In this document: positions 25,810 to 37,046 of the stretch, piece by piece
Layout: each line of letters begins with the position of its first letter
Numbering within the stretch: the first letter of the stretch is position 1
From: an uncultured Flavobacteriales bacterium
GTDB taxonomy: Bacteria; Bacteroidota; Bacteroidia; Flavobacteriales_D; Parvicellaceae
Direction of reading: 5' to 3'
NCBI GenBank assembly: GCA_905480225.1
Contig: CAJQPO010000003.1
Location: 1-37,046 of the forward strand
Length of the DNA: 37,046 bases
Made by a program: the position numbers and the translations under genes
Notes under the pieces: model-generated
Databases searched by the model: none
Told to the model about the DNA's origin: nothing
What the model saw: the letters and a program-made list of their open reading frames with translations, nothing else

Positions 25810-26802
25810 ATGAAGTATTTATTGATTTTATTATTGATTCTTTTGATGGGAGAATCTGTTTTTGCATCAAGGACAAGAATTACATCACAAACCAGTGGTA
25901 ATTGGAGAGATGTTACTACTTGGGACTTAGGTAGAACACCTGAGAATGGAGATATTGTCGTAATTGACGCGCTTCATACGGTTACGGTAATATCAAATAA
26001 TGGAACTTGTAATGGTGCACCAGACACACACTTGTACGTTAATGGTACTTTAACTTTTTCAAATGGATCAAAATTAAGGCTTGGTTGCGCCTCATCTGTG
26101 ACTATTGAAGTCGGGGGCTTACTTGCTGGAGGTTCTGGGGGAGGTTCTAGTAAAAAATTGTACATCTGTGAAAACGAACAATGGAATTCCAGTGATCCAG
26201 ATGTTCCTGGTTTTTATGTTTTTGGAAAGCCTCTACCTATTGAATTAATGGATTTCAGCGCAGAAGTGAGTGATAATAACATCTTATTAGAGTGGGTTAC
26301 AGCTGCAGAGGAAAACAATGATTATTTTGAAATATTAAGAAGTAAAAATGGATTAAGTTATGAGGTAATTGGACAAGTTTATGGTTCAGGAACAACCAAT
26401 AACACAATGTTCTATGAGTTTGAAGATTACGATCCAATTGACGGATTGTCATACTACATGCTCAGACAGACTGATTATGATGGAAAGTCCGAATCCTTTA
26501 GTCCAATTGCTGTGGAATTTACCACAGAACCTGATGGGTCATGCGTTTTAACGGTTTATCCTAACCCATGTCCAGGAAATTGTAAAGCGAAACTTAATGA
26601 GTGTCCTAATGGCAGTCCACAGGTTAGACTAATGATGACAGATGCAACTGGACATATGGTTTCTGAAGTGTACGATTCTAGGAATTTTGATGGCTCATTC
26701 GATATACATATTGATAAAACCAACAATTTAAAGCCAGGCGTTTATGTCATATCAGCGATAATAGGAGAAGAAAATATTTCCGAAAAAATCATCTTGAAAT
26801 AG
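25810..26802 (+). CDS. T9SS type A sorting-domain protein, copy 1 of a tandem duplicate
   Basis: 330 residues with a signal peptide (MKYLLILLLILLMGESVFASR). The N-terminal beta domain (20-125) starts 'TSGNWRDVTTWDLGRTPENGD', a common T9SS-associated module related to G8-type/right-handed helix domains, and has three cysteines plus a glycine-rich GGSGGGSS loop. Residues 140-245 are the usual fibronectin-like spacer ('ELMDFSAEVSDNNILLEWVTAAEENNDYFE', ... 'YYMLRQTDYDGKSESFSPIAV'). The C-terminal type A sorting domain contains 'VYPNPCPGNC', unusually cysteine-rich. No enzyme motif. It is closely similar to the next gene in order and sequence. Confidence 0.92.
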   Translation: MKYLLILLLILLMGESVFASRTRITSQTSGNWRDVTTWDLGRTPENGDIVVIDALHTVTVISNNGTCNGAPDTHLYVNGTLTFSNGSKLRLGCASSVTIEVGGLLAGGSGGGSSKKLYICENEQWNSSDPDVPGFYVFGKPLPIELMDFSAEVSDNNILLEWVTAAEENNDYFEILRSKNGLSYEVIGQVYGSGTTNNTMFYEFEDYDPIDGLSYYMLRQTDYDGKSESFSPIAVEFTTEPDGSCVLTVYPNPCPGNCKAKLNECPNGSPQVRLMMTDATGHMVSEVYDSRNFDGSFDIHIDKTNNLKPGVYVISAIIGEENISEKIILK

Positions 26803-26921
26803 AGAATCGTTTCTACATAATTGTTTTATTCATTTCTTAATTAATGGCGGCGTGGCTCTTGTAAATCGTTTTATCAGCTAATCCGGCGTTCTTGTCATTC
26901 AATACCTCCCTGTTGTAATTT

Positions 26922-26957
26922 TTTGATGCTAAAAAATGTGCTGTCCACGTACATTTG
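26922..26957 (+). promoter_or_regulatory. Predicted promoter before T9SS cargo copy 2
   Basis: TACATTTG (26950-26957) is an exact TAnnTTTG -7 box, with TTTG (26922-26925) 24 bases upstream as a -33 candidate, a base or so longer than usual. The box lies 19 bases before the ATG at 26977. The 174-base gap has no other coding evidence. It implies that copy 2 can be transcribed on its own. Confidence 0.5.
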
Positions 26958-26976
26958 AGAAACAATTTTGCCAAAC

Positions 26977-28041
26977 ATGAAACTAAATCAATTATTTACT
27001 AAACAAGTATTGAAAATAAATGCGAGTAACGACTCATTGAAGGTTACGGTTTTTAGAAGAATTTTAATCTTGTTAGCACTTTCTTTTATTTCTCCATCTT
27101 TTATTAATGGTGCAACAATTACGTCATTATCTAGTGGGAACTGGAGAGATGTAAGTACGTGGGACCTCGCAAGAACTCCAGAAAATGGGGATATCATAAT
27201 AATTGATGCATCACACACGATTACTATGCTCACAAACAATAGTTCGTGCAATGGTGCCCCTGATACGCACTTGTATATTCGTGGTACTTTAACCTTTTCT
27301 AATGGTTCAAAATTATGGTTGGGTTGCGGTTCTTCCGTTACCATTGAAGTTGGCGGCTTACTTGATGGAGGTTCTGGTGGAGGTTCAAGTAAGAAGTTGT
27401 ATATATGCGATAACGAACAATGGAATTCGAGCGATCCTGATGTTCCTGGGTTTTACGTTTTTGGAAAGCCCCTTCCAATAGCATTAATGGATTTTAGTGC
27501 CAAGGTGGGTGATAATTACATCTTACTGGAGTGGATTACAGCTGCTGAAGAAAACAATGATTATTTTGAATTATTAAGAAGTAATAATGGTGTGAACTAT
27601 GAGGTAATCGGTCAGGTTGATGGTTCAGGAACGATAAATAATACGGTCATTTACAATTTCGAAGATTTGAATCCTTTAGAAGGACTGGCTTACTATAAGT
27701 TAAGACAAACCGATTATGATGGTAAATCTGAATCGTTTGATCCAATTGCCGTGAAAAATACTAATGAAATCGTTGGTCCTTGTATTTTAAGTGTTTACCC
27801 TAATCCTTGTCGTGGAAATTGCAAGGTGAAACTAAGTAATTGCCCAGAGGGGGTAAACCGAATTAAATTAATGGTTACCGATGCAACAGGCCTTTTGGTT
27901 AATGAATGCATTGAAATAAAGAAATTCGACGGTTCTTTTGATATACAACTTGACAAATCGAACGATTTAAAACCTGGAATTTATTTAATTTCGGTTTTAG
28001 CAGGACGAGAAAGTTATTCAGAAAAATTAATTATCCAATAG
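26977..28041 (+). CDS. T9SS type A sorting-domain protein, copy 2 of a tandem duplicate
   Basis: 354 residues from the ATG at 26977 (an in-frame TTG is 9 bases earlier). The first 27 residues are hydrophilic and precede a standard signal peptide (RRILILLALSFISPSFINGA), so either the signal is unusually long or the N-terminus is not conserved. The rest matches copy 1 nearly throughout: 'GNWRDVSTWDLARTPENGD', 'SCNGAPDTHLYIRGTLTFSNGSKLWLGC', the GGSGGGSSKKLYIC loop, the 'ALMDFSAKVGD' spacer and 'VYPNPCRGNC' sorting domain. No catalytic motif is seen. The stop codon abuts that of the convergent M42 gene without a spacer. Confidence 0.92.
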   Translation: MKLNQLFTKQVLKINASNDSLKVTVFRRILILLALSFISPSFINGATITSLSSGNWRDVSTWDLARTPENGDIIIIDASHTITMLTNNSSCNGAPDTHLYIRGTLTFSNGSKLWLGCGSSVTIEVGGLLDGGSGGGSSKKLYICDNEQWNSSDPDVPGFYVFGKPLPIALMDFSAKVGDNYILLEWITAAEENNDYFELLRSNNGVNYEVIGQVDGSGTINNTVIYNFEDLNPLEGLAYYKLRQTDYDGKSESFDPIAVKNTNEIVGPCILSVYPNPCRGNCKVKLSNCPEGVNRIKLMVTDATGLLVNECIEIKKFDGSFDIQLDKSNDLKPGIYLISVLAGRESYSEKLIIQ

Positions 28042-29189: not shown

Positions 29190-30269
29190 ATGCGAGCAAT
29201 AATCTCATTTTTTTTTATCGCGATATTCTGTGGTACCTCAGCAGCTCAAGAAGATGACCTACAAGCTAAAAAAGATTCTTTGATTCAGAATGATAGTTTA
29301 TTTCAAATTGCGGAGGCGGAAAGACACTATAATCTTGGCGTTTCGTTAATGCAAAAGAATGAAAATCCTCGTGCAATTGATGCATTTAATTTGGCCTTAT
29401 CGATTATGCCAGATTTTGTTGTAGCCAAGTTTAATAGGGGTATGGCTTACTTTTCAATGAGTCAAAATGACAAAGCTAAAGGCGACTTTATACAAGTTTT
29501 GAAAATGGATTCGACTTATCACCAAGCTCATTTTCAAATCGGACTAGTCCAAATGAAAAATAACCAAATGGAACCAGCCTTAGCCTCTTATTCTGAGGCG
29601 ATAGCCTTAAATAAAAAGCAAGCAAAATATTTTTATTATCGAGGGATGATCAAGTTTCAGCAGAATGAATTTAAAGAAGCCATTGTTGATTATGACCGTG
29701 CTATAATGCTAAAAAGAGATTATGCTTATGCCTATAACGATAGGGGAAGTGCAAAACGAAAATTAAATAATTTGGAAGGGGCTGTTGCGGATTATATTTT
29801 GGCTGTAAAAAGTAATCCAGGTCTTGCTTTTGCCTATAATAATTTAGGCTCTGCAAAACGACAACAAAAGGATTACGATGGTGCTATTAGTGAGTACAAT
29901 CAGGCCATTCGACTGAAAAAGGAATACTACGTAGCTTTTAATAATAGGGGAATGGCTAAGTATGCTAATAAAGATTATGAAGGTGCTATTTCCGATTTTA
30001 CGGAAGCGATCAAGATTAAATCAGATTATGCATTTGCCTTAAACAATAGAGCATCAGCAAAAATTAGGTTGGAAAAGTATAAATCTGCAATTGCAGATTG
30101 TGATGCAGCCATTAAACTTAATCCTTCTTATGGTTACGCTTTTTATAATAGAGGTATTGCCAATGAAATGACCCGAAATATAGATGCAGCTTGTTCAGAT
30201 TGGGAAAAGGCCTCAAGCATGGGAATTGAAATTGCTGGAGAATATAAAAGAGTAACGTGCAATCAATAA
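29190..30269 (+). CDS. Exported tetratricopeptide-repeat protein
   Basis: 359 residues from the ATG at 29190 (a TTG 33 bases upstream is in frame, but the ATG directly precedes the signal peptide RAIISFFFIAIFCGTSAAQ). The mature part is a series of about eight TPR repeats of 34 residues, starting near residue 40, with the W/L-G-Y-A-F-A-P spacing clear in units such as 'AYNDRGSAKRKLNNLEGAVADYILAVKSNP', 'AYNNLGSAKRQQKDYDGAISEYNQAIRLK' and 'AFNNRGMAKYANKDYEGAISDFTEAIKI'. TPR superhelices hold protein complexes together. The stop codon shares its last base with the start of the OmpA gene, implying coupling. Confidence 0.9.
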   Translation: MRAIISFFFIAIFCGTSAAQEDDLQAKKDSLIQNDSLFQIAEAERHYNLGVSLMQKNENPRAIDAFNLALSIMPDFVVAKFNRGMAYFSMSQNDKAKGDFIQVLKMDSTYHQAHFQIGLVQMKNNQMEPALASYSEAIALNKKQAKYFYYRGMIKFQQNEFKEAIVDYDRAIMLKRDYAYAYNDRGSAKRKLNNLEGAVADYILAVKSNPGLAFAYNNLGSAKRQQKDYDGAISEYNQAIRLKKEYYVAFNNRGMAKYANKDYEGAISDFTEAIKIKSDYAFALNNRASAKIRLEKYKSAIADCDAAIKLNPSYGYAFYNRGIANEMTRNIDAACSDWEKASSMGIEIAGEYKRVTCNQ

Positions 30270-32386
30270 TGGATAGGAAAATGAAGAACGTAATTTTGAT
30301 ATTGGTGATGACGTGTTTTGCGCATATTAGTATGTCGCAGAAGGATGGGGATGTGCCGTTTGAAAAAGAATTTTTCAAAGAAAATAAAGCAGAGTTCAAG
30401 GAAGCTAAAAAATGGCTTCAAGAGGGATTGGCCTTGGTAGACGTTCCAGAGGGTTTTTATCCAAATTATAAGGCTGCAATACCCTTACTTAAAAGAGCAT
30501 ATGCCTTTAATCCCAAAAGTGCTGATTTGTGCTATAAATTAGGTATTTGTGAAATTAACAGTTCATACAAGTTTGATGCGCTTCATTTCTTTCAAGAGGC
30601 ATATCATCTAAAGCCAAATGTAGACAGGATGATACATTACTACATTGGTTTTGCAAAGCAGTTGCATTATGCATTTGATGAAGCACTTTATGAGTACAAA
30701 CTCTATCGAAATGCCTTAAGCCCGTCTGCAGATGCAGTGCAAGTAAGAGAGGTGTCGAAGAGAATTATGGAATGTGAAAGTGGTATTCAATTACTAGAGG
30801 AACCTGTTAGAGTATGGATCGATAATCTTGGGTCAGAAATTAATGGTAAATATCCAGAATATGCGGGAGTCATATCAGCTGATGAATCACTGATTATTTA
30901 CACCTCCAGAAGAGAAGGTAGTACTGGAGAAGAAATGGCGAATGGTTCTTATATGGAGGACATTTACATCTCTAATAAAATAGGAGATAAATGGACACAG
31001 TCTGTTGGGATTTCAGACCGAATAAACACGAAGAATCACGATGCAACTGTTGGGCTTTCTAACGATGGTCAAATGCTTTTCACTTATTACGATAGTGGTA
31101 AAAATCGGGGAGATTTATTTTATTCTACAAAAGAATTAGACGGGTGGTCTAAATTGGAAGATCTTGGAAAAAACATCAACAATAAAGATACCTGGGAGAC
31201 AGGCGCCTCAATCAGTTTTGATAAAAAGACGTTGTATTTTGTTTCGGATCGAGAAGGAGGAAAGGGAAAAAGAGATATCTGGAAAAGTAATTGGGATGAG
31301 GAAAAATCTAGGTGGGGTGAGGCTTCAAATTTAAGTGGAACAATTAATACAGCCTATGATGAAGTGGGAATATTTGTGCACCCTGATGGTAAGACATTTT
31401 ATTTTTCATCTGGTGGTCATAATTCAATGGGTGGTTTTGATATATTTAAAACTACTTTGAACGAGGATGGTACTTTTGAAACGCCTAAAAATATTGGATT
31501 TCCGGTTAATACGCCTGATGATGATGTCCATTTCGTAATGGCTGGAAATGGCCGACACGGTTACTATTCATCTTTTAAAGCGGATGGATATGGCGAAAAA
31601 GACATCTATTTAATTACTTTTTTGGGTGAGGAGAAAATTCCTTTAATGAATGCCGAGGATAATTTATTAGCAATGGTCGCTAAACCTGTCTTAGAGAAGG
31701 TTGTAATGCCAAAAGTTGAAGTGCAGCAATCAAATCTTGCTATTTTGAAAGGCGTAATTAGAGACGAGAAAACACAGAAACCCCTAATGTCGACTATAGA
31801 ATTAGTCGATAATTCCTTGGGTACTATTATTCAAACCTTTAAATCTGACCCAGTATCTGGTAGGTACTTAGTTTCTCTTCCGTCTGGAAAAAATTATGGA
31901 ATAGCGGTTAAATCAAATGGTTATCTTTTTCATTCTGAGAATTTTGATTTGCCAAAAGCTTCAGGGTACCGAGAATACGAGAAGAATGTGGACCTTAAGA
32001 AAATTGAAGTTGGTAAGGCAATTGTGTTAAGGAATATTTTCTTTGATTTAGATAAATTTACTTTACGAAAAGAATCAAAAACAGAGCTGGAGCGCTTAAA
32101 TAAGCTGTTGATAGAAAATCCGACGTTAAAAATAGAGTTGTCCGGTCACACGGATACGCGTGGATCTTCATCACACAACAAAACACTTTCTGAAAATAGA
32201 GCCAAAGCGGTTGTTGAATATCTTAAAAAGAAAGGTGTTTCTGCATCAAGATTAATTTCTGCTGGGTACGGGGAAGAAAAAACCATTGTTTCTGATGCTG
32301 AAATTGCGAAAATGAGTTCCAAAGAAGAGAAGGAAGAAGGACATCAACAGAACAGACGTACGGAGTTCAAAATATTGAGTAAGTAA
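30269..32386 (+). CDS. OmpA-family protein with TPR, beta-propeller and CarboxypepD_reg domains (PorE-like architecture)
   Basis: 705 residues from the ATG at 30269 (another ATG at 30281 is equally possible; both precede the signal peptide). Order: signal peptide 5-24; TPR-like helices 40-150; PD40/WD40-type propeller repeats about 190-455 ('YAGVISADESLIIYTSRR', 'TLYFVSDREGGKGKRDIWKSN', 'TFYFSSGGHNSMGGFDIFKT'); carboxypeptidase regulatory-like domain 490-575; OmpA peptidoglycan-binding domain 585-705 ('IFFDLDKFTLRKES', 'SGHTDTRGSSSHNKTLSENRA', 'GYGEEK'). This is the architecture of PorE, the periplasmic T9SS component that ties the apparatus to peptidoglycan. Bacteroidota often have several such paralogues, so which one this is remains open. 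Confidence 0.9.
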   Translation: MDRKMKNVILILVMTCFAHISMSQKDGDVPFEKEFFKENKAEFKEAKKWLQEGLALVDVPEGFYPNYKAAIPLLKRAYAFNPKSADLCYKLGICEINSSYKFDALHFFQEAYHLKPNVDRMIHYYIGFAKQLHYAFDEALYEYKLYRNALSPSADAVQVREVSKRIMECESGIQLLEEPVRVWIDNLGSEINGKYPEYAGVISADESLIIYTSRREGSTGEEMANGSYMEDIYISNKIGDKWTQSVGISDRINTKNHDATVGLSNDGQMLFTYYDSGKNRGDLFYSTKELDGWSKLEDLGKNINNKDTWETGASISFDKKTLYFVSDREGGKGKRDIWKSNWDEEKSRWGEASNLSGTINTAYDEVGIFVHPDGKTFYFSSGGHNSMGGFDIFKTTLNEDGTFETPKNIGFPVNTPDDDVHFVMAGNGRHGYYSSFKADGYGEKDIYLITFLGEEKIPLMNAEDNLLAMVAKPVLEKVVMPKVEVQQSNLAILKGVIRDEKTQKPLMSTIELVDNSLGTIIQTFKSDPVSGRYLVSLPSGKNYGIAVKSNGYLFHSENFDLPKASGYREYEKNVDLKKIEVGKAIVLRNIFFDLDKFTLRKESKTELERLNKLLIENPTLKIELSGHTDTRGSSSHNKTLSENRAKAVVEYLKKKGVSASRLISAGYGEEKTIVSDAEIAKMSSKEEKEEGHQQNRRTEFKILSK

Positions 32387-32387
32387 G

Positions 32388-35300
32388 TTATTTTTTTGCA
32401 ATTCTCACCATTTGTGGAGTTCCAGAAACTTTAGTTTTTAAAATGTAAATTCCTGCACTGTACCTGCTTAGATTGATTATTGGATTATCTGACTCTATGA
32501 GCATTCTTCCCGCGTAATCATAGATTTCATACACTGTTCCAATTGGTAAGCCTTGTACATTAAAAAAACCTGTTCCTGGGTTTGGATATACGCTGATGTT
32601 GGGTTTTTCAATTTCGGATGTGTTGGTAGCGGGTTGATAATTGGTTATATTAATGTTGTCTATATAAAGCCAATTTCCTTGTCTGCCAATATTTCTAAAA
32701 ATAATTTTCACACTGCTATCGCCAATTACATTGCTGACATCAACTGTTACTTTTGTCCAATATGTCGGTTCGGGAGAGAAGGGTCCAGTAAACAGTCCGC
32801 TCACCGTTGCTAAATTAGTACCACCTTCTTGCCATTCATGGTTTACCATCCCACCACAGTTAGATGTAGTATAAATCGCTAAGCTGTCTTTCTTGTACCC
32901 ACTATTCCGACCATAGGCATAATCAAATTGTAACCAAATTTCCGATTCATTAGAAGCGTCAAAGGCCGCTGAAAAAAATTCATCAATGGCCAAGAAGTTT
33001 TGACTGTAATTATCTATTGCAATGCACGAATCGCTTAGGCCGTAAGCGCCAAAAGGTTCGAGTTTCCACCCTTGCAACAAGTCTGGATTGTTAATGACCC
33101 ACTCCGAATTAATGCCAGATTCAAAGTCTTCGTATAAATCTAATGGGTTAACTAAAGGATGGTCAACAGATATGTGATGTAATTTATCAATGGTGTCACT
33201 CCCTGTGGCATTGTTTACAATAAGCTGTACATCGTATGTTCCAAGTGCCGGATAAGTTACAATGGGATTTTGATCTGTACTTGTTGCTGGTATCCCTCCT
33301 GGAAAACTCCATGACCACAAGGGGCCGTGGTTGCTGCAATTATCAAAAAAATGTACAATTTGACCCGGGCAAACATCATTAAAATCTGATTTAAAATCCG
33401 CTACTGGTAGACCTAGTGGTCCCTTTAGAGGAGATTCCCAGACACCTCTTCCATATGTTCCAGCTCGAATAGTAGCGGTTGCATAATGAATGTTAAGCTC
33501 GTTAACGATTACATTGGGAAGACCATCATCAAAAGTTTGCCAATAAACTAAATTACTGTCTTTGTAGTAAACGCCATTATCTGTTCCTATATAAAGACCC
33601 GCGTTAGAACCTGCTTCATATACGATACAATTGACAGGTATATTGGGTAGATTCACGGTGATGTTGTCCCAAGAAGCACCGGCATTATTTGTTACATAAA
33701 CTTTCTTCCCGCTGGTATAACCAGACAGTGTTAAAAAAACCACATTTGGATTAGTCGGACTAATAGTAAACGAAGATATCCACTGGCCAGAAGGAAGATT
33801 GGAATTGCAATTAACCCATGTTGCACCGGCATCATCTGTTCGCCAAATGTCATTGTAGCTTGAGTAATACACAACATCTGGATCCGCTGAAGAAATCTCC
33901 ACGTACTGTATTGTGGTGCCTGAAGGGGAAACTTTTTCCCAATCTAGACCACCATCTACAGTTTTCCAAATGGCTGAATACCCTGCGTACAATATGTCTG
34001 TATTCGAAGGATTAATTACATACGGAGTAACCCATCCGCCATTATCAATTATACTGTCAGAAATACCAAAAAAATTAATTCCTCCATCTGTCGTTTTATT
34101 CATCGAACCATTTTGGTAGCAGGTATACCATGTGTTTTGATCGGAAGGGTCAATGATTGCTTCCATTCCATCGCCACCTCTAATGTGTTCCCAACCACTA
34201 GCTTTTCTAATGAAAGTACCATTGTCTTGTAGTCCACCAATAATTAGATCTGCATTTTGCTCTGTTAAGCCGATTTTGTAAAATTGTGAGACCTCCAATC
34301 CTTCGGATAAGTCTGTCCATGTTGTTCCGCTATTATATGATTGAAAGATACCTCCGTCACTACCACAGTATAGCTTAGCCCCGATGTAATCTAAACAGTG
34401 AATGTCAGCATGCGTATAACCCACTGAAGACGGATGCACCCAATGGGAAATTATGGTGAAGAAATTTCCACCATCATTCGATCGCCAGACATTAACTCCT
34501 CCTACAACAATACGTTCTTTGTTGGAGTGGCTGCATGCAATAGCAAGATCGTACCAACCTTGACCACCTGAGCTTGTACCATCTTCAGAGTAACCCAACA
34601 GATTGGTTGTATCGTATCTTAAATCATAAGTAATACCACCATCAACAGAGCGATATACACCTAATAAGCCATTATCTGCAACACTTGAAGCAAGCGCGTA
34701 AACATAATTTGAATCTGCTTCCGTGACGGCAATTGCAACTCTGCCAACAATTGAAGTTGCCGGTAGTCCGGAACTTGCTGTAAAAGAATTACCACCATCA
34801 TTGGAATAAAATGTGGAAATACCACTTGCATAAATTGTATTCGGGTTCGCTGGGTTTAATTCAATATCTCTAATGGAATAGTTGTTTTTTCGTACCCAAT
34901 TATCACCACCGTCAGTCGTTTTATAAAACCCGTTATTTGTGGCCGCCCATAAAATTTGATCATTTGTGGGATGTATTAACAATTTGTACACTTTTTTCGC
35001 TGAGGTTACCACGTAGTTTAAGTCTGTAGTAGACCATGTCAATCCACCATCTACGGATTTAACTACGCCAATACTATATGTATCACTACCGTCTCCATCG
35101 CCTGTTGCAGCGTAAATTAAGTTTGAATTGGAATTGCTGATAACAATAGACGAAATGCCCATGCAAATAAAATCATCAGATAACGGAGTCCAGGTGCTAC
35201 CCGAATTTAAGGATCGCCATATGCCTCCAGAAGGAGAACCAATGTAAATGATGTTAGAGTTATTAGGGTCTTCTGTGATGCAATTTACACGTCCATTACC

Positions 35301-35651
35301 GGGATTCCATCCAGTAGGATTTGTCCAGCTATTAGGTCCAAGGGAAGTCCAATAACTTGATTTTTGTTCAATGGGTGGAAATTTTGACTCAAAATTCAAT
35401 CGCTCAATGTAATTAGCAACAGGGGATGGGCGATTTCCTGTGGGATACACACGCGGCTCCATAAAATATTCCCATCTTTTAAATTGTTTATACCCTAGGC
35501 CTCTCTCAATATTTCTATTGCCCCAATGGTCCAAAAAAGATTGTTGGACGGTGTAAAAGTTGACATCGGGGTCTTGCATTTCTTCGACCCAAACTTGTCC
35601 ATTAATATTTTTGACAAAAATTAAAAGAGCGATAATGACGATAATTTTCAT
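32388..35651 (-). CDS. Large T9SS cargo: BNR/sortilin-like propeller, PKD and type A sorting domain
   Basis: 1087 residues. Signal peptide 1-18 (cut near NINGQ). About 110-740 consists of repeats typical of BNR/VPS10-like propellers, such as 'GIWRSLNSGSTWTPLSDDF', 'GFYKTTDGGDNWVRKN', 'AIWKTVDGGLDWEKVSP', 'DIWRTDDAGATWVNCN'. Residues 749-830 are a PKD domain (PVADFKSDF, 'WSWSFPGGIPATSTDQNPIVTYPALGTYDVQLIV'). A jelly-roll-like domain at 840-1005 opens with 'YEDFESGINSEWVINNP'. The sorting domain is at 1020-1087 (VYPNPGTG, 'YEIYDYAGRML', 'SRYSAGIYILKT'). A glycosidase-like or binding role for the propeller is common in this family, but no active site is recognisable. Confidence 0.93.
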   Translation of the reverse strand: MKIIVIIALLIFVKNINGQVWVEEMQDPDVNFYTVQQSFLDHWGNRNIERGLGYKQFKRWEYFMEPRVYPTGNRPSPVANYIERLNFESKFPPIEQKSSYWTSLGPNSWTNPTGWNPGNGRVNCITEDPNNSNIIYIGSPSGGIWRSLNSGSTWTPLSDDFICMGISSIVISNSNSNLIYAATGDGDGSDTYSIGVVKSVDGGLTWSTTDLNYVVTSAKKVYKLLIHPTNDQILWAATNNGFYKTTDGGDNWVRKNNYSIRDIELNPANPNTIYASGISTFYSNDGGNSFTASSGLPATSIVGRVAIAVTEADSNYVYALASSVADNGLLGVYRSVDGGITYDLRYDTTNLLGYSEDGTSSGGQGWYDLAIACSHSNKERIVVGGVNVWRSNDGGNFFTIISHWVHPSSVGYTHADIHCLDYIGAKLYCGSDGGIFQSYNSGTTWTDLSEGLEVSQFYKIGLTEQNADLIIGGLQDNGTFIRKASGWEHIRGGDGMEAIIDPSDQNTWYTCYQNGSMNKTTDGGINFFGISDSIIDNGGWVTPYVINPSNTDILYAGYSAIWKTVDGGLDWEKVSPSGTTIQYVEISSADPDVVYYSSYNDIWRTDDAGATWVNCNSNLPSGQWISSFTISPTNPNVVFLTLSGYTSGKKVYVTNNAGASWDNITVNLPNIPVNCIVYEAGSNAGLYIGTDNGVYYKDSNLVYWQTFDDGLPNVIVNELNIHYATATIRAGTYGRGVWESPLKGPLGLPVADFKSDFNDVCPGQIVHFFDNCSNHGPLWSWSFPGGIPATSTDQNPIVTYPALGTYDVQLIVNNATGSDTIDKLHHISVDHPLVNPLDLYEDFESGINSEWVINNPDLLQGWKLEPFGAYGLSDSCIAIDNYSQNFLAIDEFFSAAFDASNESEIWLQFDYAYGRNSGYKKDSLAIYTTSNCGGMVNHEWQEGGTNLATVSGLFTGPFSPEPTYWTKVTVDVSNVIGDSSVKIIFRNIGRQGNWLYIDNINITNYQPATNTSEIEKPNISVYPNPGTGFFNVQGLPIGTVYEIYDYAGRMLIESDNPIINLSRYSAGIYILKTKVSGTPQMVRIAKK

Positions 35652-35769: not shown

Positions 35770-37046
35770 ATGGTACGCGTCATTTTTTGTTTCCTGTTCA
35801 TCCCTTCTGCTTTGTTTAGTCATGAGGCTGATGTCCTTCATGTTCCCAATTGTAAAGTCGTAAAGGGAAGCTTTCTTTTTGCCGCTGAAACTGAAGTGAC
35901 AAACGGGCAATACCTTCTCTTTTTGAACGACCAGTGCAGAAAGCATGGTGCCGAATGCTATTCGTCTTTACTTCCGGATACCTCGGCATGGTTGTCACCG
36001 GGCACGTATTCTGAACCGTATAGTCAGTATTATTTTAGACATCCGGCGTATAGAGAGTATCCAGTGGTCAATGTGTCCAAAAGACAAGCTGAAGCGTTTT
36101 GTGAATGGATGGAGGTTCAATTGAATGAACAGTTCGGAAAATTGACAAATCAGCCAATCGTTTCTGTAGATGTTCGATTACCTACGGATCAAGAATGGCA
36201 AGAAGCAGCTCGTGGTGGCAATCAATACGCAATTTTTCCGTGGCCAGGTTCAGGAATGCGAAATACAACTCAAAAACACAAAGGTAGATTTATGGCTAAT
36301 TTTTCGAGAGGACGAGGAGACTACATGGGTGTTGCCGGAATTCTGAATGATGGAGCGGACATTACTGCACCGGTTCGTTCGTATTGGCCGAATCAGTTTG
36401 GTCTTTACAACCTGTCTGGAAATGTGGCTGAAATGCTGCAGGAGGAAGGCAGAACAAGAGGCGGTAGTTGGTCGAGCCGAGCACCTTATCTTGAAATTTC
36501 AGGCGTTGATCCTTTTGAAGGGTTTTCAAAACCATCTCCGGAAATAGGATTTCGGTATTTTGTGGAGGTGTTAGATAGGCGGGATTGCAAAACCATACGT
36601 AAACAGAAGATAACAGCAAGGCGAATTGAAAAAATGCTGGTTTCGGTAATTCAAGATACATTGATGGCTTGGAAATATGAAATTTCAAATGAATGGTATG
36701 ATGAATTTGTTCAGGAAACTTCTGATGAAAACAAACCCAATGGAGAATTATGGATAGGAGAGCTGTCCTATGCGCGCCGTCTTAAGAATGATTACAGCAC
36801 GCATTCCGATTTTAAAAACCACCCGGTTGTTAACATTAGTCGTGACCAGGCATTGAAGTTTTGCGAGTGGTTGACCAAGAAGTACCATCAATTCCCAGGT
36901 AGAAGATACACTCAGTTGAAATTCGATCTGCCATTAGAGCGTGAGTGGGAGAGAATGGCGTCCGGTAACATCAATTGGTATCGTTTCCCATGGGGAGGGC
37001 CATTTGTTACGAATGCAAAGGGTGAATGGTTGTGCAATCACAATAC
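35770..37046 (+). CDS. Protein with two FGE/SUMF1-type domains, 3'-truncated by the window
   Basis: 425 codons run from the ATG at 35770 to the right edge with no stop. An in-frame TAA at 35764-35766 and an AAAGGA stretch (about 35756-35761) support this start. A signal peptide covers residues 1-17. The first FGE-sulfatase (SUMF1) domain spans about 30-268: 'AAETEVTNGQYLLFLND', 'YPVVNVSKRQAEAFCEWM', 'VRLPTDQEWQEAARGG', 'NQFGLYNLSGNVAEML', 'TRGGSWSSRAPYLE', 'SPEIGFRYFVEV'. A second copy starts near 285: 'AWKYEISNEWYDEFV', 'HPVVNISRDQALKFCEWL', 'FDLPLEREWERMASG', 'YRFPWGG'. Active FGEs use two cysteines; the first domain reads SWSSRAP where a Cys is usual, so it is probably non-catalytic, like the GldJ/GldK proteins of the gliding/T9SS system. 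It is divergent from the large cargo gene. Confidence 0.88.
   Translation, partial: MVRVIFCFLFIPSALFSHEADVLHVPNCKVVKGSFLFAAETEVTNGQYLLFLNDQCRKHGAECYSSLLPDTSAWLSPGTYSEPYSQYYFRHPAYREYPVVNVSKRQAEAFCEWMEVQLNEQFGKLTNQPIVSVDVRLPTDQEWQEAARGGNQYAIFPWPGSGMRNTTQKHKGRFMANFSRGRGDYMGVAGILNDGADITAPVRSYWPNQFGLYNLSGNVAEMLQEEGRTRGGSWSSRAPYLEISGVDPFEGFSKPSPEIGFRYFVEVLDRRDCKTIRKQKITARRIEKMLVSVIQDTLMAWKYEISNEWYDEFVQETSDENKPNGELWIGELSYARRLKNDYSTHSDFKNHPVVNISRDQALKFCEWLTKKYHQFPGRRYTQLKFDLPLEREWERMASGNINWYRFPWGGPFVTNAKGEWLCNHN

Follow-up and report, generated by a model that had tools for sequence, protein, structure and literature searches.

The window, by which we mean the whole 37,046-base stretch of DNA that was analyzed, ends within a gene for a conserved exported protein with two inactive domains of the formylglycine-generating enzyme (FGE) fold; the part present is the first four fifths of that gene. 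Its relatives GldK/PorK and GldJ are the ring and track proteins behind secretion and gliding in Bacteroidota. The features of the locus are as follows.

35770..37046, + strand: tandem FGE-fold gene, first 425 codons; the open reading frame is open at its 3' end, and a homologue has 529 aa.
35770..35823, + strand (end approximate): probable Sec signal peptide without a classical lipobox, from the hydrophobic N terminus read from the sequence and a lipobox pattern search.
35851..36576, + strand: first FGE-fold domain, residues 28 to 269, from PF03781; residues 22 to 269 of a homologue model match PorK (Z 23.7).
36457..36486, + strand: RGGSWSSRAP, with Ser at the site of the first catalytic Cys of FGE, from alignment to two annotated FGEs.
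36616..37044, + strand: N-terminal part of the second FGE-fold domain, residues 283 to 425, from PF03781; whole in homologues, where it matches PorK (Z 24.8).
37018..37038, + strand: KGEWLCN, counterpart of the RGCF loop in GldK, from the alignment and cysteine table; Glu at the client-Cys position and Cys three residues on.

In the window's list of open reading frames, the last whole codon ends at position 37044, which leaves 425 residues and an open 3' end. Since the window is the entire contig (37046 bases) and the gene runs off its end at residue 425, the frame is cut by an assembly break and not by a stop codon, in agreement with the earlier description of the gene as cut by the window edge. 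Approximately 104 further codons are expected beyond the contig end, judging from the 529-residue homologue of a genus-mate; the missing C terminus had no match elsewhere in the same genome assembly (2.76 Mb, 96% complete).

Pfam model PF03781 (FGE-sulfatase) matched the window protein in two stretches (E value of 8.5e-41 for the whole protein), and both domains are complete in the full-length protein of the genus-mate, so that the tandem arrangement claimed in the sequence-only reading holds, as do all of the fold motifs that it quoted (RLPTDQEW, FGLYNLSGNVAEM, RGGSW-SSRAP, and IGFR). The same reading had placed a signal peptide, but no lipid anchor, at the N terminus. By eye, the N terminus looks like a signal peptide, and a pattern search of the 14 homologues found no classical lipobox in the window protein; elsewhere among the 14 there were three doubtful matches (ILNC), which lie some 12 polar residues past an ordinary-looking cleavage site. 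As a control, a similar pattern matched 34 of 42 GldJ and GldK proteins.

The question of formylglycine chemistry was addressed by aligning the 14 tandem proteins with two annotated FGEs that carry the motif GGS-x-LC-xx-YC, the cysteines of which we take to be the catalytic pair. The first domain of the window protein has Ser in the first catalytic column, as had been noticed from the letters, and a gap in the second. Against these two FGEs, no first domain (0/14) and no second domain (0/14) has Cys in either column; the second domain of the window protein stops before the catalytic site, and the real test is therefore that of 13 second domains, none of the complete homologues having a catalytic Cys there. 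No CxPxR sulfatase was found in the genome: it encodes two sulfatase-fold proteins, neither of which shows a C/S/T-x-P/A-x-R motif, and an FGE would thus lack a visible substrate. A PF03781 search of the genome returned only three proteins, namely, the window protein, a protein on contig C83 that is GldK (574 bits; cut-off, 350), and a protein on contig C44 that is GldJ (461.9 bits; cut-off, 458.2). With no CxPxR sulfatase and no FGE-family protein beyond GldJ and GldK, formylglycine chemistry is effectively ruled out, as the sequence-only reading had suspected. The protein does belong to the same fold family as catalytic FGEs (PF03781); however, neither cysteine is present in either domain and the genome lacks a CxPxR sulfatase, and the probability that it is a formylglycine-generating enzyme is close to nil. 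An enzyme with other chemistry on the same fold (EgtB-, SenA-, or PvdO-like) is hinted at by weak NCBIfam matches to SenA (31.5 of 420 bits) and PvdO (28.3 of 500 bits), but these scores are far under the cut-offs, and the nearest kin, PorK, is described as nonenzymatic in PMC12421860; we consider such an enzyme quite improbable.

The closest relatives of known structure are indeed components of the type IX secretion system (T9SS). When solved structures were ranked by sequence, four PorK chains stood on top with 98 to 99 bits, versus 44 bits for the best FGE, and a family profile gave 162 bits for PorK versus 66 bits for the best FGE. An AlphaFold2 model of a full-length homologue, built from a 14-row alignment (mean pLDDT, 75.3; pTM, 0.65), was compared with solved structures, with Foldseek ranks obtained in addition to the Z scores: the first domain (residues 22 to 269) best matched PorK 9myj_B (Z 23.7, rmsd 3.0, 233 residues) and the second (residues 284 to 529) PorK 9mzu_A (Z 24.8, rmsd 2.6, 220 residues), whereas FGE structures reached a Z of about 20 to 21 against the same model. 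The proposed kinship with GldJ and GldK is thus upheld by sequence and by predicted fold, PorK chains being the nearest solved relatives. Within NCBIfam, the best match of the window protein was the GldK model TIGR03525, with 226.7 bits (equivalog cut-off, 350), and full-length homologues scored 229 to 293 bits against the same cut-off; the GldJ models TIGR03524 and TIGR03530 gave the window protein 152.8 of 458.2 and 158.0 of 382.9 bits, respectively. In these NCBIfam scans, no model scored above its cut-off for the window protein or for its tandem and solo relatives. Identity as GldK or GldJ was rejected, both curated cut-offs having been missed and normal copies being present in the same genome, where the GldK gene is followed by gldL, gldM, and gldN, as read from the sequence. 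Because the scores fall below the cut-offs, a classical lipobox is lacking, and an ordinary GldJ and GldK coexist with it, the tandem protein is neither GldK nor GldJ.

A search of 40 genomes, its own included, yielded full-length two-domain genes of 514 to 555 aa in 11 genomes, besides the cut window gene itself and two contig-end fragments (in genomes G014 and G034). The nearest homologue, that of the genus-mate, lies in the same gene order and is 86.6% identical over 425 residues. Across 299 genomes of the order, the tandem profile matched 48 at an E value of ≤1e-60; by match span and inspection of reading frames, those of the lowest-ranked matches being read in part, these comprise 21 two-domain genes in a single frame (the cut window gene counted), 2 fragments, and 25 one-domain matches, so that 23 of the 299 genomes carry the tandem gene, whole or partial. 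It follows that the two-domain form is a real and established but patchy family; within its own family of bacteria, most of the sampled genomes lack the gene. Carriers are mostly Flavobacteriales metagenome-assembled genomes (MAGs), whereas the solo exported relatives range more widely, with MAGs labelled as Chitinophaga, Saprospiraceae, or other Bacteroidota among those that encode them. These solo proteins, of ~220 to 340 aa, are scattered in Bacteroidota (L161, L162, L163-L167; L138-L148); in the hot-spring-type MAG KatS3mg027 there are three, of which two lie side by side (L162). In a Kiritimatiellae-labelled MAG (L169:5613-8672(+)), a 1019-aa protein has a long unrelated part followed by a C-terminal FGE-like domain. 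Among 157 plasmid records, only more distant FGE-like proteins were found, every one with less than 60% identity; among the solo relatives on plasmids, some bear the annotation "SUMF1/EgtB/PvdO family nonheme iron enzyme," which is likely misleading for the tandem and solo proteins. In searches of the open-access literature (PMC, preprints excluded), none of the titles and abstract openings returned dealt with an FGE protein of the GldJ/GldK-like kind, tandem or solo.

Comparison of the window gene with that of the genus-mate gave a dN of 0.077, a dS of 0.40, and a ratio of 0.19; for GldJ in the same pair of genomes, the values were 0.009, 0.53, and 0.017. The tandem gene is therefore under purifying selection, roughly tenfold weaker than that on GldJ, and is not decaying. 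The truncation by the contig end and the faster evolution relative to GldJ would suit a decaying GldK/GldJ duplicate or an assembly artifact, but 11 other full-length genes in 40 genomes, a dN/dS of 0.19, and two genus-mates with the same neighborhood make this very improbable, and we rejected it as contradicted by the intact homologues. No premature stop, which would have pointed to decay, is present in the relatives. In one genome (G007), the second domain is degenerate.

In the gliding-track model of PMC12635249, GldJ and GldK form antiparallel lines that lie next to each other, and it therefore matters whether the tandem protein combines one GldJ-like and one GldK-like domain. Profiles were built from 19 GldJ and 20 GldK domains and applied with G007, G014, and G034 left out and three tandem proteins unsplittable by pattern. 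All 17 first domains scored higher with GldJ than with GldK (median, +49.5 bits); second domains scored higher with GldK in 16 of 17 cases, with one tie and none favoring GldJ (median, -19), and 17 of 21 solo proteins leaned toward GldJ. In the 43 columns diagnostic of GldJ versus GldK (rows K_G002, J_G034, J_G013, and D2_G007 left out), first domains had 151 GldJ-type, 77 GldK-type, and 280 other residues and 8 gaps, and second domains had 73, 124, 294, and 68, respectively, counts that are not independent because the sequences are related. Speaking against a GldJ-like first domain, when single domains were scored with the broad NCBIfam models, the first domains scored somewhat higher with GldK in 4 of 4 tested (149.9 to 161.5 versus 94 to 140 bits), and the three second domains tested preferred GldK far more (101 to 154 versus 40 to 63 bits).

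In a maximum-likelihood tree built from 69 of the 74 domain rows (without K_G002, J_G034, J_G013, the window second domain, and D2_G014), GldJ grouped with GldK (support, 94.7/92), and both tandem domains fell outside this group. Approximately unbiased (AU) tests used 10 GldJ, 10 GldK, 11 first, and 11 second domains; G007, the solo proteins, and the anti-sigma-like rows were excluded in addition. The grouping of first with second domains versus GldJ with GldK was preferred (p 0.863), the pairing expected of a fusion (first with GldJ, second with GldK) lay above rejection (p 0.137), and the reverse pairing was rejected (p 0.0014). Three other models on the same trees agreed with these outcomes (p 0.133 to 0.212 for the fusion pairing). 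Over the central 110 columns, the fusion pairing was the preferred one, nonsignificantly (0.786 versus 0.25). On these sequence comparisons, the second domain is clearly GldK-like and the first relatively more GldJ-like, GldJ descent being a candidate only; the tandem protein may have originated by fusion of two genes or by internal duplication.

Turning to the surroundings, the adjoining gene at 32388-35651(-) contains the T9SS sorting domain TIGR04183 (30.8 bits; cut-off, 23), as expected of the large T9SS cargo gene that had been recognized there. The gene at 30257-32386(+), which had been called PorE-like, does match the PorE model, but with 264.9 of 600 bits it is below the cut-off, as it is for CHU_0125 (296.5 of 620 bits); it encodes an OmpA-domain protein with PD40 repeats that stands between the PorE and CHU_0125 families. 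Farther upstream, 25810-28041(+) holds two adjacent genes for related proteins that cluster together, the second with a T9SS sorting domain. The T9SS-cargo and PorE/CHU_0125-like neighbors hold their place only in three members of the genus. In other genera, the tandem gene lies amid unrelated genes: apart from it, no neighbor family is common to more than 4 of 12 loci, Pfam searches of neighbors in other genomes returned DUF4920, porin-like, and T9SS-cargo genes without a pattern, and across genera the 12 loci showed no T9SS gene in conserved linkage with the tandem gene. The use of the neighborhood as evidence of T9SS function was not borne out and was set aside; since the neighbors are conserved only within the genus, location says little.

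Every one of the 23 tandem-bearing genomes has GldK (13 of 13 in one set, 12 of them over the cut-off, plus the other 10 genomes). The suggested co-occurrence thus exists, but it does not discriminate, because GldJ/GldK-like matches occur in 40 of 40 relatives. In two tandem-bearing assemblies, the GldK gene is broken: in G002 (L077, G002:C222), it is in two pieces, cut at a contig end and with an unrelated-looking tail, and in G013 (G013:C3:41291-42723), it is split in three, with an in-frame TGA.

Outside the catalytic columns, cysteines are conserved at residues 28 (11/14 proteins), 111 (14/14), and 365 (13/14), with further ones at residues 422 (8/14) and 419 (4/14). In GldK, according to PMC12635249, Cys343 in an Arg-Gly-Cys-Phe loop is disulfide bonded to SprF and PorG. 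Most members retain, in the second domain, the motif around this site, PWGGPYIRN-x-KG-x-x-L-x-N. At the client-binding position itself, Cys is found in 4 of 14 members; in the window protein this residue is Glu, and a Cys follows three residues later. Given this low count, a disulfide role is possible in some members but is not general.

For the tandem protein, we postulate a pseudoenzyme scaffold, soluble in the periplasm and with an accessory role, the likeliest partners of which belong to the T9SS or gliding track or ring, and put the probability of this reading at about 0.5. With a signal peptide and no lipid anchor, the protein would be soluble in the periplasm, where its two noncatalytic domains may act as a scaffold or binding protein through PorK-type interaction surfaces; GldK, GldJ, and GldN would be the likeliest partners, and a cap, assembly factor, or adaptor would be more in keeping with the protein than a structural repeat. 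In favor of such a track accessory, PorK chains lead the comparisons of sequence and, for both domains, those of predicted fold, the top NCBIfam model is GldK, and none of the 14 proteins has a catalytic Cys; GldK is present in every tandem genome, and dN/dS is 0.19. By analogy, the same fold could serve for docking here: in PMC12421860, PorK uses it as the hub on which PorN and neighboring PorK dock. Against it are the lack of conserved T9SS linkage, the near ubiquity of the T9SS in these bacteria, the patchy distribution, the degenerate second domain in G007, the client Cys in only 4 of 14 members, and constraint weaker than that on GldJ.

The main rival reading gives the tandem protein a general role in periplasmic binding or sensing on an FGE/C-type-lectin-like fold: it would be a relative of GldK no longer connected with the T9SS, and its ligand would be a glycan, a peptide, or an envelope component. 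This is a serious possibility to which we assign appreciable, though less than even, weight. The orphan location in every genus and the patchy distribution fit it, as does the occurrence of the same fold in the Treponema variable protein and the phage Major Tropism Determinant, both of which were among the structural matches; it gains further weight from related domains on anti-sigma-like membrane proteins behind ECF sigma genes. However, sequence and fold are nearest to PorK and not to those binders, and GldJ/GldK signature motifs are retained. At three loci (L057:6179-8105(+), L058:7650-9047(-), and L144:8397-10272(+)), an ECF sigma gene is directly followed by a gene for a membrane protein in which a cytoplasmic-looking N terminus and a single transmembrane stretch precede an FGE domain of the GldK/GldJ-like type at the C terminus; Pfam was checked in L057 and L144, the sigma gene of L058 being presumed. 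Such a protein could be an anti-sigma factor that senses the state of the envelope or of the T9SS.

For the track-accessory reading, a more specific form can be envisioned. In PMC12635249, the T9SS and gliding track has recently been redrawn: GldJ, GldK, and GldN make up a polymer that moves and carries its clients through disulfide bonds. A soluble polypeptide with one GldJ-like and one GldK-like domain would be a ready-made end piece or adaptor, docking on track ends and limiting or nucleating the track; where the loop Cys is kept, it could receive a disulfide from SprF or PorG clients without a membrane anchor. We regard this elaboration as speculative and rather unlikely. The conserved soluble two-domain family and the wider set of solo proteins provide concrete candidates for track-related function.

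Among known systems, GldK/PorK is the closest. The tandem protein shares with it an FGE-like pseudoenzyme fold, PorK being the best structural match of both domains, and motifs of the YYFRHPAYxxYPVV and PWGGPYIRN types; unlike GldK/PorK, a lipoprotein of the T9SS ring and track, it has two domains in a row and no classical lipobox, lies at its own locus away from gldKLMN, and has mostly lost the client Cys. With GldJ, a lipoprotein of the gliding track, it has in common the GRGDYMGVAG-LND-ADVTAPV-SYWPN stretch of the first domain, but it falls under the cut-offs, lacks the classical lipobox, and has a first domain for which the models of NCBIfam itself prefer GldK. FGE/SUMF1 and SUMF2 have the same fold. 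SUMF2 is catalytically inactive, and in this the tandem protein resembles it. The tandem protein differs from this group in the absence of the catalytic cysteines, in its two domains, and in its GldK-type motifs. The solo exported FGE-like proteins of Bacteroidota, for which no established name turned up, have the same kinship and an export-type N terminus but only one domain.
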